Source of the DNA: a virus
Strand: one strand, 5' to 3'
Virus record (IMG/VR): IMGVR_UViG_3300042470_000283
Span: 1-24,207 of that record
Length of the DNA stretch: 24,207 bases
Made by a program: the position numbers and the translations under genes. Below are positions 1,929 to 21,661 of this stretch, piece by piece. Within the stretch, counting starts at the first letter, position 1. Each line of letters begins with the position of its first letter. The notes under the pieces are model-generated. The model was not told the origin of the DNA, did not search any database, and was given only the letters and a program-made list of their open reading frames with translations.

Positions 1929-2071
1929 TGCCACTATTCCAAGGAGACAGCCAAGAAATAATCAGCATGAACATCCGCAAGCTAATCAGCGAGGGGTATT
2001 CGCCAAGCCAAGCGGCTGCGATTGCATACGCAGAGGCTGATAAGTATAAACAAAAGCGAGGTAAGCGATGA
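1928..2071 (+). CDS. Small phage protein of the (Q)xQAxAIAxxxA type (47 aa)
   Basis: The ATG overlaps the previous stop (TAATG) and the stop overlaps the next start (ATGA). The core, ISMNIRKLISEGYSPSQAAAIAYAEA, matches a short helical motif often seen in phage proteins (NI..LI..GY...QA.AIA..KA). The N-terminus MPLFQGDS also fits such proteins. Function is unknown. The tail is Lys-rich. The perfect coupling at both ends argues strongly that it is a real gene despite its size. Confidence 0.72.
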   Translation: MPLFQGDSQEIISMNIRKLISEGYSPSQAAAIAYAEADKYKQKRGKR

Positions 2072-2607
2072 ACGTACAGCTTATAAACATATCCGAACTA
2101 ACGGTTAACCCTAATAACCCTCGCGTTATTAAGGACGAAAAGTTTGATAAGCTGGTTCAGTCGGTTAAGGAGTTTCCAGATATGCTAAAGCTGCGCCCGA
2201 TAGTGGTGGACGAGAATAACGTGATTTTAGGCGGTAACATGCGTTTTAAGGCGTGTAAAGCTGCCAAGCTAAAGCAAGTATATGTTATGCAGGCTAACGA
2301 GCTTACAGAGGCTCAAAAGCGCGAATTTATAATTAAGGACAACGTAAGCGGCGGCGAGTGGGATTGGGCTATGTTACAAAACGAATGGGATACCGAGCAG
2401 CTCGATGCTTGGGGGGTGGATGTGCCTATATTTGAAACTGAGCCTAGTTATGAAGATTTAATAGGTGAGGAAAAAAATAAGCCAGCAACGATGAAAATTA
2501 CCTTTGAAAGCCCTGAACAATTACAAAAGGCTGAAATAGATATACAAGAACTGATTGATAGAAAATATAAAGGCGCTTACTTTTCAGTTAGTGCAGGTGA
2601 AATATGA
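2068..2607 (+). CDS. ParB/sulfiredoxin-like nuclease-domain protein (179 aa)
   Basis: Residues 1-95 show the ParB N-terminal domain as found in phage and methylase-associated proteins. INISELTVNPNNPR is the first strand with its NPR motif, RPIVVDENNVILGGNMRFKACK contains the GGxxR motif, and REFIIKDNVSGGEWDW ends the domain. The C-terminal part (from about 125) is Glu/Lys-rich. In phages such proteins often accompany DNA methylases or other DNA-modifying enzymes, and here the neighbour is a Mom-like gene joined by ATGA. Whether it cuts DNA, binds a site or acts as a methylase specificity factor cannot be read from sequence. Base composition changes to AT-rich near base 2440, inside the gene. 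Confidence 0.82.
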   Translation: MNVQLINISELTVNPNNPRVIKDEKFDKLVQSVKEFPDMLKLRPIVVDENNVILGGNMRFKACKAAKLKQVYVMQANELTEAQKREFIIKDNVSGGEWDWAMLQNEWDTEQLDAWGVDVPIFETEPSYEDLIGEEKNKPATMKITFESPEQLQKAEIDIQELIDRKYKGAYFSVSAGEI

Positions 2608-3317
2608 GATTAGAAATTGCATCAAATAAGGCTGTAAAATATGCGTGTTTAAATTTTCATTATGCGAAAGCAGTTCCAGTTAATACAATTGGGTTTTCTG
2701 TGTTTAATGAAAAAAAAGAATGGTGCGGCGTTATTTTATATGGCAGTGGAGCTAATAACAATATGCCAAAGCCTTATGGTTTGGTTTCAGGGCAAGTATG
2801 TGAATTAGTTAGAATGGCATTAAATGGAAAACAAGAAAGCACATCTAAAGCTATGTCTATTTCATTAAAGCTATTGCCAAAATATTTGCCATTATGTAAA
2901 ATAGTAGTTTCATACGCTGATATAGATGAAAATCATTTTGGTACAATATATCAAGCTACTAACTGGTATTATACTGGTGAAACAAATATAGGAATGCGAA
3001 CAGGATTTATAATTAATGGTAAAAAAACGCATAATAAATCAGTACATGGAAAGGGTGTAATACAAAGTTTAGATGAGGTTAGAAAGCATTTAGATAAAAA
3101 CGCTAAGCCTTATATAACAAAAGGCAAAAGAAAATATATATACCCGCTTGATAAATCTTTAATACCTTTGTGTAAGTCATTATCAAAGCCATACCCTAAA
3201 CATGCGGCAATAGCTCACTCGGGAGAGCGCAGTACTACCAGTACTGAGGGGGCGTTCGATGCGACCGTGCCGCTCAATATTACAGACGAAATACAGACGC
3301 ATGGCATTCCCGCATGA
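2604..3317 (+). CDS. mom-like: Mom-like DNA modification protein (GNAT-type adenine modification)
   Basis: The N-terminus (MRLEIASNKAVKYACLNFHY, then AKAVP) and the following VNTIGFSVFNEKKEWCGVILYG match the Mom family. Phage Mu Mom is a GNAT-fold enzyme that turns adenines in phage DNA into a modified base and so protects against restriction. Later parts are GQVCELVRMALNG, KIVVSYADIDENHFGTIYQATNWYYTGET and a basic stretch near 150-180. The gene is much richer in A and T than its neighbours, which suggests transfer as a cassette. From residue 201 (base 3204) the composition switches back and the frame reads through a tRNA-Gly-like sequence, so the last 37 residues may not be part of the enzyme fold. 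It overlaps the terminase small gene by 17 bases. Confidence 0.8.
   Translation: MRLEIASNKAVKYACLNFHYAKAVPVNTIGFSVFNEKKEWCGVILYGSGANNNMPKPYGLVSGQVCELVRMALNGKQESTSKAMSISLKLLPKYLPLCKIVVSYADIDENHFGTIYQATNWYYTGETNIGMRTGFIINGKKTHNKSVHGKGVIQSLDEVRKHLDKNAKPYITKGKRKYIYPLDKSLIPLCKSLSKPYPKHAAIAHSGERSTTSTEGAFDATVPLNITDEIQTHGIPA
3204..3274 (+). tRNA. tRNA-Gly-like sequence, anticodon ACC, inside the mom-like gene
   Basis: The sequence folds as a cloverleaf. Acceptor stem 3204-3210 pairs with 3267-3273 (6 of 7 pairs, mismatch at position 7). Positions 8-9 are TA. The D arm has GCTC/GAGC (4 of 4) with a GGG-containing loop. The anticodon stem CAGTA/TACTG is perfect, with loop CTACCAG and anticodon ACC. 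The T arm loop is TTCGATG with 4 of 5 stem pairs. Known glycine identity features are present: G1-C72, C2-G71, G3-C70, C35, C36 and T73. Weak points are a 3-base variable loop, two stem mismatches, A34, and no encoded CCA. It could be a working phage tRNA, a decayed tRNA or a tRNA mimic. It is read in frame as mom codons 201-224. Confidence 0.5.
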
Positions 3318-17781: not shown

Positions 17782-17788
17782 GAAAAAA

Positions 17789-17877
17789 ATATTTTTACTT
17801 TTTTTATGAAATAGTTTGCTAATTCAAAAAGTGTTTCTATATTTGTGCTGTTAAACAATTAAACACTTACACACATG
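17789..17877 (+). repeat. Promoter-leader repeat, copy A
   Basis: This 89-base segment aligns without gaps across the promoter part with 19620-19708. Shared parts are ATATTTTTA, GTTTGC, ATTCAAAA, a TAnnTTTG -7 element at the same offset, and a leader with GTTAAACA, TTAAACA and CACAC before ATG. The downstream coding sequences are not similar, so only the regulatory part is duplicated. Confidence 0.75.
17815..17845 (+). promoter_or_regulatory. Bacteroidota-type promoter, TTTG-N19-TATATTTG
   Basis: TTTG at 17815-17818 and TATATTTG at 17838-17845 are separated by 19 bases, a near-ideal Bacteroidota -33/-7 pair. TTTGC is followed after three bases by TTCAA, as at three other promoters of this window. 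Transcription should begin near 17852, giving a leader of about 23 bases with AAACA repeats and no Shine-Dalgarno sequence. Confidence 0.8.
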
Positions 17878-18060
17878 ACAACAATTCAAAACACAACAGG
17901 AAGCAAAGCGGTAAACATCAGAAGAAACGGCGCAAACTCTACTACATTTATTGCGTCTTACGTGCAAATTTACGACGGTATGCAGCAAGTTTTAGACGCT
18001 AAAGATTTTGCCTCTGAAAAAAACGCAATCAAATGGGCTAACAAAGTTTTAGGAAACTAA
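17875..18060 (+). CDS. Small monocistronic phage protein (61 aa)
   Basis: A basic N-terminal half (GSKAVNIRRNGAN) precedes a beta part (FIASYVQIYDGMQQVLDAKDF) and a short helix (SEKNAIKWANKVL). This pattern occurs in small Bacteroidota phage proteins, but I know no function. It has its own strong promoter and terminator, so it is a self-contained transcription unit placed between virion genes, as expected of an early or accessory (moron-like) gene. Confidence 0.82.
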   Translation: MTTIQNTTGSKAVNIRRNGANSTTFIASYVQIYDGMQQVLDAKDFASEKNAIKWANKVLGN

Positions 18061-18085: not shown

Positions 18086-18110
18086 AGCCGCCATAAAAAG
18101 CGGCTTTTTT
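18086..18110 (+). terminator. Rho-independent terminator after the 61-aa gene
   Basis: AGCCGC (18086-18091) pairs with GCGGCT (18100-18105) around an 8-base loop, followed by a run of six T. The T run doubles as part of the -33 element of the next promoter. The same stem sequence is used in the terminator at 20019-20043. Confidence 0.85.
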
Positions 18111-18138
18111 GTTTTGCAATTTCAATTAACTATCTTTG
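18108..18138 (+). promoter_or_regulatory. Promoter overlapping the terminator, TTTG-N19-TATCTTTG
   Basis: TTTG at 18108-18111 lies 19 bases before TATCTTTG (18131-18138). A second TTTG at 18113-18116 carries the TTTGC-N3-TTCAA pattern but is only 14 bases away. The ATG at 18145 begins six bases after the -7 element, so the mRNA is probably leaderless or nearly so. Confidence 0.75.
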
Positions 18139-19582: not shown

Positions 19583-19619
19583 ATTGTTTATTTTCAGCGA
19601 GTTAGGTAAGTAAGTAAAA

Positions 19620-19708
19620 ATATTTTTAATTATTTTCTGAATAAGTTTGCAGATTCAAAATAAAGTTATACATTTGTCATCGTTAAACATTTAAACATTC
19701 ACACTATG
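19620..19708 (+). repeat. Promoter-leader repeat, copy B
   Basis: Same length as copy A (17789-17877), with TTTG and the -7 element at identical offsets (27 and 50). The leader keeps GTTAAACA, TTTAAACA and CACAC before the ATG. The copy drives a different small gene. The 37 bases between the terminator at 19582 and this repeat show nothing else. Confidence 0.75.
19646..19676 (+). promoter_or_regulatory. Bacteroidota-type promoter, TTTG-N19-TACATTTG
   Basis: TTTG at 19646-19649 and TACATTTG at 19669-19676 are 19 bases apart, with TTTGC-N3-TTCAA at the -33 side. The leader of about 23 bases before ATG 19706 has no Shine-Dalgarno sequence. Confidence 0.8.
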
Positions 19709-19999
19709 AACACAGCAACACAAATTCTGGAGCAATTAGGCGGTAACAAATTCGCGGTAATGACTGGCTCTTACAATTTCATCGCAACAAATAACGGTTT
19801 GCGTATGACACTACGTAGAAACAAAGTACAAGCAAAACAATTAAGCATCGAGCTTAATTCGTTAGACCTTTACGATGTACATTTTTACACTTTCGATAAA
19901 GAGTTTAACATCAAAACAAAAGCAAAGTTCGAGAACGTTTATAACGATATGCTTCAATCTATATTCACTCAGGTAACGGGTTTATATACTCGCCTGTAA
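19706..19999 (+). CDS. Small monocistronic phage protein (97 aa), widespread type in Bacteroidota
   Basis: The sequence begins with a helix (ATQILEQLGGNKF) and continues with beta strands (NFIATNNGLRMTLRRN, LYDVHFYTFDKEFN). It ends with FENVYNDMLQSIFTQVTGLY. I have seen this ILEQLGGNKF...SIF...TGLYT pattern in many small proteins of Bacteroidota phages and mobile elements, but the function is unknown to me. It has a private promoter and terminator, as does the 61-aa gene, and sits in the middle of the head module, so it is probably an accessory gene active apart from the virion operon. Confidence 0.85.
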   Translation: MNTATQILEQLGGNKFAVMTGSYNFIATNNGLRMTLRRNKVQAKQLSIELNSLDLYDVHFYTFDKEFNIKTKAKFENVYNDMLQSIFTQVTGLYTRL

Positions 20000-20016
20000 T
20001 ATTTAAAAGCAATTTA

Positions 20017-20043
20017 AGAGCCGCCTAACAAGCGGCTTTTTTT
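20017..20043 (+). terminator. Rho-independent terminator after the 97-aa gene
   Basis: AGAGCCGC (20017-20024) pairs with GCGGCTTT (20032-20039) around a 7-base loop, followed by more T. The stem core equals that of the terminator at 18086. Confidence 0.85.
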
Positions 20044-20053
20044 ATTTAATTGT

Positions 20054-20082
20054 TTTGCATTTTCAAATAATTACTATATTTG
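20054..20082 (+). promoter_or_regulatory. Promoter of the structured RNA, TTTG-N17-TATATTTG
   Basis: TTTG at 20054-20057 and TATATTTG at 20075-20082 are 17 bases apart, and TTTGC-N3-TTCAA is again present. Transcription should begin near 20088, which is the base of the first hairpin of the noncoding RNA below. No start codon follows closely. Confidence 0.75.
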
Positions 20083-20086
20083 CAAA

Positions 20087-20501
20087 AGATAGTTAGGGGC
20101 TATCTAACTAAGCACGGATATTCCTTTTCGATATATCGCCCTTAAATAGACCCCCTACCTATTTAGGGGCTTTTTTATTGCCCCTAACAGGCTGATAAAC
20201 CGACCAGTTCAGCCGTGAGCATAGGCGAGGAATCGCAAACAAAAGCAGTCGTTAAAGAACTTATAAACCAAGTTATGCGTAGGTGCGCTGCAAACTCGAG
20301 GGGGGCAACACCGACCAAGTGCAAGGGGCTAAATGCTCAAGTGTAACGAGGGGATTTGTTGAAAATAGTTAGCGCGAAAGAAAAGAGGCGACGAGCGGCT
20401 AACAGCCTGATATATCGAAAACAGGAACACGGGCAATAAATCTAATAAGTACCGATTAAACGGTTTAACTACCTTGCACGGGAGAACCCCCTCGCTATGC
20501 T
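20087..20501 (+). ncRNA. Large structured noncoding RNA, unclassified (about 415 bases)
   Basis: No convincing protein gene lies here, but paired segments abound. The outer helix joins 20218-20230 to 20490-20501 (12 pairs, one bulge). Nested within is 20319-20326 with 20472-20479 (8 pairs). Local hairpins are 20087-20105, 20190-20214 (GGCTGA/TCAGCC), 20258-20274, 20368-20403 (GTTAGC/GCTAAC), 20406-20425 and 20451-20464. The 12-base loop of hairpin 20406-20425 is fully complementary to 20125-20136, giving a possible pseudoknot. A 9-pair match joins 20092-20100 and 20180-20188. A promoter sits just upstream. It does not resemble RNase P, tmRNA, 6S RNA or group I introns by their core motifs. 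A long capsid leader or packaging element are alternatives. Confidence 0.6.
20152..20188 (+). promoter_or_regulatory. Attenuator-like terminator/antiterminator switch in the RNA 5' region
   Basis: CCCCTA (20152-20157) can pair with TAGGGG (20164-20169), and CTTTTTT follows, making a terminator. The same TTAGGGGC (20163-20170) can instead pair with GCCCCTAA (20180-20187), hiding the T run in a loop. TTAGGGG in the loop of the first hairpin (20093-20099) can also pair with either C-rich segment. Four segments with exclusive pairings are the architecture of known attenuators and riboswitches. Confidence 0.55.
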
Positions 20502-20572
20502 TTGAAATTAAAATAATCTTACGTAAATTTACCGCGCTCAAATGACAAATTATTTTTAGGCGTGAATCTTTG
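20501..20572 (+). promoter_or_regulatory. Candidate promoters for the capsid gene
   Basis: Two weak candidates are seen. TTTG at 20501-20504 with TAAATTTA at 20524-20531 has the ideal 19-base spacing but one mismatch in the -7 element. AATCTTTG at 20565-20572 has a one-base difference in the -7 element and no clear -33. An A-rich leader without a Shine-Dalgarno sequence runs to the capsid ATG at 20618. Confidence 0.4.
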
Positions 20573-20582
20573 CCGCCTTTTT
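20558..20582 (+). terminator. Possible terminator of the structured RNA
   Basis: AGGCG (20558-20562) pairs with CGCCT (20074 bases after 500, i.e. 20574-20578) around an 11-base loop, followed by four more T. The stem is short. It would end the RNA about 35 bases before the capsid ATG, but it also overlaps the second candidate capsid promoter. Confidence 0.45.
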
Positions 20583-20617
20583 AAGTGCAAAGACAAACTA
20601 AAAAACCTAAAAACAAA

Positions 20618-21661
20618 ATGTCAATTTCTCGCATTTTATCAGAATGCCCGAATGTGCAAATGTCACTATCGGAGCTTTTCATCGAGGTAGGTCAGCGCGA
20701 ACAGCTACCTTTCCTCGAGTTTCTTAATTCACCTGAAAACGTAAAGCTAATTAAACAAGAAGTAGCACCCGGTCGCGGTAAGCTAAAGACTGTTGAGGCT
20801 CGTTGGATTCAGCGCCTACCTGAGACGGAAGTCGAAGAGGGTGGCGATATCCTTACTTGTACCTCATCAAACACCTACGGCGATTCGACCACTACTTACA
20901 CGCTCGAAACAACCGATACGTACATCGCATCACAATTAATTAACGCTGCTGATATTGCTCGCCATTGTCAGGAAAACAGCCGTTACGTACTTGAGAGCGT
21001 TATGCGTTTAATGGATGTAATCGACCGCAAGGTAGCATCAGCCGCAGCTACGCAAGCTGTTTCAGCTATCGGAGCTTGGGGTACTGATGTAGATGGTTAT
21101 TACAGCGTAACTGGAGATTGTTTAGAAATCACAACTGAATTGGGTTCGGCTGAACTTAACCCGTTTGCTTTGGCTGACATCTTACAGGCTACTCGTATGG
21201 CTAATTACCCTGCCGCGCCAATCGCTTTCGGCGGTGCTGCAATGCAGCGTTACGCTAACGCGGTTCAAGCTGGGTGCTGCACCCAGTATGGCATCGACCT
21301 TTTAGCTATTTCACAGCAAAACGGTTTCGGGTTTGCTTACGATGCTCGTTTAGCTGCTGCACAGGGCAGCCAAACTAAAGCTCTCGTAACAACCGCAGGC
21401 GCGATGCAATGGTTATCGTTTAACATGGCTGAGTGGAATGCAGGTATTACACCAGTAGCGGGTAGCAATTATTCTAAGACTATTGCTTTCACCCCTGCGG
21501 GCTTGCCTGTTGACTTGACCATGAAAGACGATTGCGGTAACTTATCTATCGTTGTAACGCACACGGGCAAGCTCGTAACGTTGCCAACTGATATTTACGA
21601 ATCAGGCGACAAATACGCTGGCGTAAATTACGTTAACTGCGTGTCTATCGTAAACCCGTAG
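20618..21661 (+). CDS. Major capsid protein (347 aa)
   Basis: The start MSISRILSECPNVQ at 20618 follows an A-rich leader; an in-frame upstream TTG/ATG-like start in the leader was set aside. An N-terminal arm (LSELFIEVGQREQLPFLEFL) is followed by the long spine-helix region (INAADIARHCQENSRYVLES, VMRLMDVIDRKVAS), Ala-rich domains and a beta-rich C-terminus (DCGNLSIVVTHTGKLVTLPT). Size, codon-regular sequence, the scaffold gene upstream and position in the head module support the capsid call. A terminator follows after 78 bases that are open in the -1 frame. Confidence 0.82.
   Translation: MSISRILSECPNVQMSLSELFIEVGQREQLPFLEFLNSPENVKLIKQEVAPGRGKLKTVEARWIQRLPETEVEEGGDILTCTSSNTYGDSTTTYTLETTDTYIASQLINAADIARHCQENSRYVLESVMRLMDVIDRKVASAAATQAVSAIGAWGTDVDGYYSVTGDCLEITTELGSAELNPFALADILQATRMANYPAAPIAFGGAAMQRYANAVQAGCCTQYGIDLLAISQQNGFGFAYDARLAAAQGSQTKALVTTAGAMQWLSFNMAEWNAGITPVAGSNYSKTIAFTPAGLPVDLTMKDDCGNLSIVVTHTGKLVTLPTDIYESGDKYAGVNYVNCVSIVNP

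Follow-up and report, generated by a model that had tools for sequence, protein, structure and literature searches.

The window, that is, the whole stretch of DNA analyzed here, is the complete 24,207-base virus record of a tailed phage, and its recognized proteins are a DnaB-type helicase, a ParB-like protein, a Mom-like protein, the large terminase, the tape measure protein, and the portal protein. The feature under study lies between a small gene and a gene that has no match in PHROG or Pfam; as gene position is the only basis for "capsid", the latter is referred to here as the capsid-position gene (Table 1). The sole tRNA found in the record by ARAGORN, a tRNA-Gly (anticodon acc) at 3204-3275 (+), is 17 kb away from the RNA, within the end of the Mom-like open reading frame (ORF; 2604-3317) and just before the terminase ORF. 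At 2068-3317, the ParB-like protein adjoins this Mom-family DNA modification protein (PF25680, E 3.7e-35), a neighborhood that suggests modification of the phage DNA. Two pairs of similar non-coding stretches (17785-17878 with 19616-19711, and 18086-18138 with 20018-20082) each stand before different genes; they are ~74-83% identical (inside the window or between the window and relatives) and constitute repeated terminator-promoter units.

Judged by comparative analysis, the ~415 bases at 20087-20502 are a real, folded, non-coding RNA gene, termed type A, with its own Bacteroidota-type promoter. The promoter that an earlier note on this DNA had placed directly upstream is present as TTTG and TATATTTG, the latter invariant in 11/11 aligned sequences, and its assignment follows what we take to be the Bacteroidota consensus. 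Because the first pair of hairpin P1 comes five bases after TATATTTG, this hairpin probably stands at, or adjoins, the 5' end of the transcript.

Table 1. Features of the type A RNA gene and its flanks in the window, with the basis or support for each.
Feature	Position	Strand	Basis or support
Small gene 5' of the RNA	19706-19999		
Intrinsic terminator of the small gene; left flank of the cassette	20016-20040	+	terminator scan
Promoter: TTTG (20054-20057), 17-nt spacer, TATATTTG (20075-20082)	20054-20082	+	sequence
P1, hairpin at the transcript 5' end, loop TTAGGGG	20087-20105	+	predicted start site
P1 loop bases complementary to T loop 20152-20157 (kissing loops)	20094-20099	+	
P2, small hairpin between P1 and T	20117-20137	+	94.5% of cells
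T, 12-pair terminator-like hairpin (20138-20170), then six-U run	20138-20176	+	
GCCCCTA 3' of the U-run; could re-pair with the T 3' arm in read-through RNA	20180-20186	+	prediction
Hairpin GGCUGA/UCAGCC opening the body	20190-20214	+	6/6 pairs invariant
RNA body, closed by helix 20217-20224/20495-20502	20217-20502	+	97.7% of cells paired
Local hairpin	20225-20236	+	48/48 cells; 3/4 pairs two-sided (L043, L113)
Helix 20297-20304/20487-20494, CGAGGGGG/CCCCCUCG (CAAGG/CCUUG in L003)	20297-20494	+	94/95 cells
Helix 20319-20326/20472-20479, GUGCAAGG/CCUUGCAC	20319-20479	+	invariant, 12/12
Helix 20353-20361/20434-20442	20353-20442	+	96.0% of cells; 2 pairs two-sided
Helix 20368-20375/20395-20403	20368-20403	+	100% of cells; 4/8 pairs two-sided
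Hairpin CCUG/CAGG or CCUC/GGGG	20406-20425	+	100% of cells
Hairpin, stem 20448-20454/20461-20470	20448-20470	+	two helices, 93.9% and 95.5% of cells
Leader belonging to the capsid-position gene; flanks the cassette on the right, outside the RNA	20506-20584	+	
Capsid-position gene, 3' of the RNA	20585-21661	+	

Conserved fold and coding potential

The single-sequence fold of the window strand has an energy of -125.3 kcal/mol (z -2.77; 0/100 shuffles equally good). A homolog search coupled to a test for compensatory change, as proposed in the earlier note, yielded 11 further type A records (75-94% identity to the window), and an alignment of 11 sequences, which leaves out the joined L124/L084, was used for the comparison. 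The at least eight mutually compatible helices recognized previously are extended by this alignment to a structure of 16 helices and 96 pairs, in which 98.4% of 1055 cells are paired, a figure favored by the structure having been drawn with the alignment and the RNAalifold prediction already in view. The shuffle test is less affected by this: two-sided compensatory changes occur at 17/96 pairs, compared with 5.5 ± 1.6 in shuffled alignments (0/500 reach the observed number), and covariation is 0.148 versus 0.082 in shuffles (0/500). When the registers of the structure are slid, pairing drops to 36-43% of cells.

The region was described at first as lacking a convincing gene, and the comparison agrees. 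The longest ORF touching it in the window, a 70-aa minus-strand frame with a TTG start (20329-20541), is present in 2/11 type A records, the window sharing the frame with L003 only. Frames of 45-80 aa are present in 10/11 type A records, and this, together with a fold energy that is only moderately unusual, is what an unrecognized small protein or chance folding has in its favor; no frame of at least 45 aa is common to more than 6/11 records, and L016 has none. A small protein was rejected for the lack of any frame generally kept across the type A records, and the covariation and the frame comparison together refute both explanations computationally, leaving them next to no chance of being correct.

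The clearest compensations are found in the hairpin at 20225-20236, where GCGA/UCGC in most sequences is GGCU/AGCC in L043, and at 20406-20409/20422-20425, with CCUG/CAGG versus CCUC/GGGG; further clear cases occur in 20368-20375/20395-20403 and 20451-20454/20461-20464. In the hairpin at 20406-20425, which had been predicted from the window and is paired in every aligned sequence, one pair is swapped between G-C and C-G in 5/11 sequences, and the hairpin at 20448-20470 has three pairs with two-sided changes. The invariant helices (T, 20190-20214, and 20319-20326/20472-20479) are compatible with the structure, and covariation is silent on them. The last of these, the nested eight-pair helix of the earlier note, is kept throughout, and its constancy means that covariation says nothing about it.

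Two elements of the original fold fared less well. From the outer 12-pair helix 20218-20230/20490-20501, the seven outer pairs stand (82/84 cells), and the five inner pairs (54/59 cells, with no two-sided change) were rejected, as the hairpin 20225-20236 and the helix 20297-20304/20487-20494 explain the same bases better. The 12-base pseudoknot 20125-20136/20410-20421 can be formed in the window, yet it is paired in 78.8% of cells, has a single compensatory cell (240/500 shuffles reach this), and is broken in the alignments of L019, L015, L018, L099, L016, and L124. Neither the kissing hairpins at the 5' end nor the hairpin resembling an intrinsic terminator within the RNA had been noticed in that first fold. 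Single-sequence folding of such regions is thus misleading: the claimed pseudoknot is unconserved, and another loop-loop contact is kept.

The earlier placement of this RNA outside the Rfam classes also stands: no family reaches its gathering score anywhere in the region, and at E ≤10 in 19990-20620 no match lies within the body, with a few weak ones overlapping its edges, as far as 20198 on the left and starting at 20497 on the right. Membership in ROOL or GOLLD, which had been raised without a sequence match, is not borne out, as neither covariance model matches at gathering score or at E ≤10 in 19990-20620. For ROOL, GOLLD, and similar large phage RNAs, structures are available, and to our knowledge no function is known. 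The likeness of type A to them, as far as the excerpted text of PMC12286853 describes it, lies in being phage-encoded, large, ornate, non-coding, and equipped with kissing loops. The type A RNA differs in being smaller (~415 nt) and in adjoining a capsid-position gene rather than a tRNA island; a GOLLD RNA has a conserved 3' region and often exceeds 800 nt, a description that type A does not fit. A literature search of titles and the beginnings of abstracts, with few subscription journals included, found no such phage RNA named.

Distribution and exchange at one genomic site

Among candidate stretches in viral_contigs, 227 relatives of the capsid-position protein were identified, and the best 80 were kept. 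Profile searches of these best 80 of 227 loci identified 8 with type A, 6 with a second RNA (type B), 7 with a third (type C), and 58 with none, some of which end close to the gene (e.g., L029, L067, L070); L026 ends within the 5' module, so that 59/80 kept loci, L026 included, are without a full A, B, or C. In most RNA-less loci with a recognized upstream gene, the gap is ~190-280 bases. Pattern scans added type A in L113, L099, and L124/L084, and the type B records were joined by L399 and by L185 and L253, the latter two among the matches listed by a general pattern scan in which nearly all loci listed are unrelated. The totals are at least 12 type A records including the window, 9 type B, and 7 type C, with identical RNA score and position in the type C records L006, L007, and L008. 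A strict-stem motif scan missed types B and C, because of a bulge or mismatch in their T stems, as well as some of type A; its remaining matches come from an unrelated locus and from a coincidence of terminator and loop that recurs in records of type A and in L047.

In all 11 further type A records, the RNA precedes the same capsid-position gene, and the neighboring genes agree in every record inspected. Within 40 records, picked by us from these loci and mostly without known completeness, a single copy of type A is present in each of 9 and a single copy of the B/C module in each of 10 different records, with neither found anywhere else. In genome_contigs (84,980 species), there is no relative of the capsid-position protein and no exact match to a 23-letter type A pattern; the phage collection holds no relative of the RNAs (merely short matches at chance level) and no match of the capsid-position protein, and the plasmids hold no relative of the type A body.

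Types B and C are structured RNAs located between the same flanks on the opposite strand. The type B records L022 and L020 are 92% identical to the window as far as 20049, a left flank common to all three, and again from 20506; the replaced stretch is 20050-20505, in which type B reads away from the capsid-position gene. The distance between the matched ends is similar (~417 vs 457 bases in the comparison of type B with type A). Types B and C have a common 5' module and differing bodies, and the bodies of A, B, and C are unrelated. RNAalifold predictions without shuffle control contain two-sided changes at 18/94 pairs in type B (6 sequences), 10 of these being body pairs, and at 12/120 in type C (5 sequences, some near-identical), with 7 body pairs, and single-sequence folds give z -2.21 for type B (L022; 3/100 shuffles equally good) and z -3.50 for type C (L006; 0/100).

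Type C bodies match the Betaproteobacteria-1 RNA (RF02932) over its full length in 5/5 type C records examined, with 38.3 bits and E 8.3e-6 in L040 and 26 bits and E 0.0054 in L006, compared with a gathering score of 49.4 bits. Positions 7-61 of the 391 in HOLDH (RF02997; gathering score 319.4 bits) match at 21.2-22.6 bits in 3/5 type C records (3/20 records, all type C). In controls at E ≤10, RF02932 matches 11/14 genomes and HOLDH 4/14, none over the cut-off, and type C may be regarded at most as a distant, below-cut-off relative of Betaproteobacteria-1/HOLDH. This likeness belongs to type C and not to the type A of the window: neither model matches the type A or B RNAs, and the sole other RF02932 match is one of 20 bases elsewhere in the window (E 2.66).

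The last 120 bases of type C (L006, L012, L027, L040, L023) and type B (L022, L021) have a direct repeat in their 3' part, with copies that vary in step between records: AAAAGCTATAC occurs twice in L006, AAAAGCTATTAG in L040, GGATACTT in L022, and GAATGTTT in L021. Because the copies do not appear by eye to pair with each other, they may bind a partner in trans. From reading of the sequences, the same slot holds other cargo with open frames in L009, L014, L030, L053, and L054, including what we take, from motifs judged by eye, to be a DNA methyltransferase (L054, 1432-3001).

The earlier note had also considered a regulatory leader of the capsid gene. Type A does lie on the strand of that gene and upstream of it, and the terminator scan found no terminator between 20502 and 20700, both of which speak for a cis-acting leader. 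Against this, the site is occupied in relatives by types B and C, which read from the opposite strand, as in L022 and L020, or has none of these RNAs, as in L047, where the right flank is kept at 89%. The gene retains its own leader (20506-20584) in such relatives, at 88-92% identity in L022, L020, L021, L035, L006, and L047, in which the RNA is replaced or absent; in L011 the leader is diverged (76%). A cis-acting role was rejected on these grounds and appears very unlikely. It is hard to see how a gene of opposite direction could take the place of a leader, so the type A RNA most likely works in trans; with near relatives that have no RNA or other, opposite-strand RNAs, it has the appearance of an exchangeable cassette, inserted at a site for accessory genes that the small gene and the capsid-position gene enclose. 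The retained, conserved leader itself contains inverted repeats of short length; in L016 and L043 another leader is present, resembling that of L009 and L014.

The shared 5' module

At the 5' end of type A, P1 (20088-20104) is paired in 100% of cells, with G-U changes that preserve the hairpin in L113 and L016, and all 12 pairs of T are invariant in the 11 sequences; by sequence, 20138-20176 has the marks of an intrinsic attenuator in a leader, a hairpin rich in G+C with a U-run directly after it, and this hairpin is invariant in A and covarying in B/C. The terminator scan also reports a shorter terminator-like site at 20152-20169 with the same U tail. P2 is weak, since 3/5 of its pairs are broken in L016 and no compensatory change occurs, and the predicted re-pairing of 20180-20186 with the T 3' arm has no two-sided change. 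The loops of P1 and T are complementary in 98.5% of type A cells: with G-U allowed, all six pairs form in 12/12 type A sequences (five to six by Watson-Crick pairing alone), 2/6 pairs have two-sided changes, and the sequences change in step in L113 and L005 (UGAGGG/CCCUCA). Within type A, a permutation test of the loops is weak (1492/20000), because the loops are all G-rich versus C-rich.

The same layout occurs in types B and C, where P1 is CGAAAC...UUCG and T is CCCCGA (or a close variant)...UCGGGG, followed by the invariant UUUUUUUAU; the U-run TTTTTTTAT is invariant in 10/10 B/C sequences. Eight different complementary loop sequences are present in B/C: CGGGCGG, CGAGCGG, GUGCAG, GUGCCG, CUUGCAG, CUUGCGC, and CUUGCGG, each opposite its exact complement, and an eighth, new pair, GUGCCU/AGGCAC (GTGCCT/AGGCAC), in the held-out L185, which was found via its terminator. 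The held-out type B records L253 and L399 repeat the L035 loops (GUGCCG) and CGAGCGG, respectively. Loops form a mean Watson-Crick run of 6.75 with their own partners and 3.57 when crossed (reached in 2/20000 permutations), and shuffled loops reach a run of at least 6 in 444/40000. For P1, T, and the loop-loop contact together, 91.6% of 214 B/C cells are paired, with nine pairs two-sided (0/500 shuffles); loop-loop cells are undercounted in this figure because the L021 and L035 loops are one column off register in the alignment.

Selection appears to keep two hairpins and a loop contact, since covariation is seen in the hairpin stems and not in those of a full P1:T duplex. The two-hairpin stems of B/C have 10 two-sided cells (0/500 shuffles), which, counted as pairs, are 4 and not unusual (95/500); these changes fall in the inner stem of T, and the P1 stem is nearly constant. 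The full P1:T duplex, the candidate competing antiterminator of an attenuator, has 0 two-sided cells; it was rejected as the selected fold and could still be an alternative state. In equilibrium folding of the read-through RNA, it prevails over T in 22/23 sequences (P(T) ≤0.12; 0.65 in L003), and in folding of the nascent RNA ending at T, the B/C sequences already prefer the duplex and those of A are mixed; with the duplex favored in folding, T may be transient.

A type A covariance model finds 9/12 B/C modules (E 0.004-1.5, mixed with antisense self-matches of type A), and a B/C model finds 9/12 A modules (E 0.055-2.4). Unrelated loci chosen for a similar terminator score equally well or better with the B/C model (L242, E 0.0015), and cross-recognition is therefore not used as evidence of common descent. 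What the 5' modules of A, B, and C have in common is the layout, and we make no claim of common descent.

Proposed working and implications

At a probability of roughly 45%, we tentatively propose that type A is a self-standing, exchangeable RNA gene, likely acting in trans, with a terminator gated by kissing hairpins. The P1 hairpin would open the transcript, and its loop would pair with that of T, which begins 50 nt downstream; this kissing pair would gate the intrinsic terminator, such that part of transcription would stop at the U-run, giving a short RNA of ~90 nt (P1 and T), and the remainder would read through into the full RNA of ~415 nt, with the conserved body as the putative effector. 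As each RNA bears a loop and its complement, the short RNA of one genome copy could bind the nascent RNA of another, and the loop sequence would act as a specificity tag, as in plasmid antisense-RNA attenuation or phage P4 CI RNA immunity. Counting against gating are the position of the body past the U-run, which makes it dependent on read-through, the duplex favored in folding, the weak loop covariation within type A taken alone, the weak cross-recognition of A and B/C modules, and the lack of a full A, B, or C in 59/80 kept loci, some of which are cut short.

Known systems of this kind offer partial parallels. According to the excerpted text of PMC4825925, termination in phage P4 is brought about by the CI RNA, which base-pairs with seqA/seqC in the transcript it derives from, and IsrK gives short terminated and read-through forms from one phage promoter. 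Type A resembles antisense-RNA attenuation and the P4 system, as far as they are described there, in having a predicted short RNA and a leader with complementary stretches near a terminator. It differs in that one transcript contains both the antisense hairpin and the terminator, with the two in the same orientation, and in that the downstream product is a structured RNA and not an mRNA; the likeness is one of working only.

The main rival to terminator gating is oligomerization via the same loops, a possible but rather doubtful reading in which the P1-loop/T-loop contact forms between molecules to give dimers or rings/cages, and the U-run is a linker and not a terminator. Every RNA has a loop plus its complement, the loop pairs covary, and the RNA is phage-encoded, large, structured, and missing from many relatives. 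The prohead RNA (pRNA) of phage phi29 likewise has two complementary loops in one RNA, able to bind between molecules; type A differs from it in being a much larger RNA of an unrelated phage, and accessory rather than universal in its group. GOLLD, ROOL, and OLE form homo-oligomers in which intermolecular kissing loops provide part of the contacts, as stated in the excerpted text of PMC12286853, which keeps this rival alive. Its difficulties are that T resembles a textbook terminator, with the constant U-run noted above in B/C, that one kind of contact, located close to the 5' end, would produce chains or dimers if the geometry did not close a ring, and that no ROOL or GOLLD model matches.

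It is also conceivable, and in our estimation quite unlikely, that the short 5' RNA alone (P1-P2-T, ~90-105 nt) is functional as an sRNA and the body is a separate element or a decoy. The 5' layout common to A, B, and C in front of unrelated bodies fits such an sRNA. The bodies do not: that of type A holds most of the covarying pairs (helices 7, 9, and 11-16), those of B and C contain the predicted two-sided pairs given above, and no second promoter was seen before the type A body, either by eye or in a sigma-70 scan.

Returning to the gated RNA gene, the related phages amount to a natural experiment in which one slot is empty, carries small open frames, or is occupied by any of three large RNAs. 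Because the 5' layout is common to all three and their loops change in matching fashion, a function such as termination control or RNA-RNA recognition could be tested by swapping two short loops. More speculatively, and on balance improbably, the slot may house an RNA-only phage cargo system, in which unrelated large RNA effectors are swapped on either strand behind a common 5' module, with hypervariable kissing loops as self/non-self tags. If true, such RNA-only cargo would provide protein-free copy sensing or superinfection immunity, or self-specific assembly of RNA particles.
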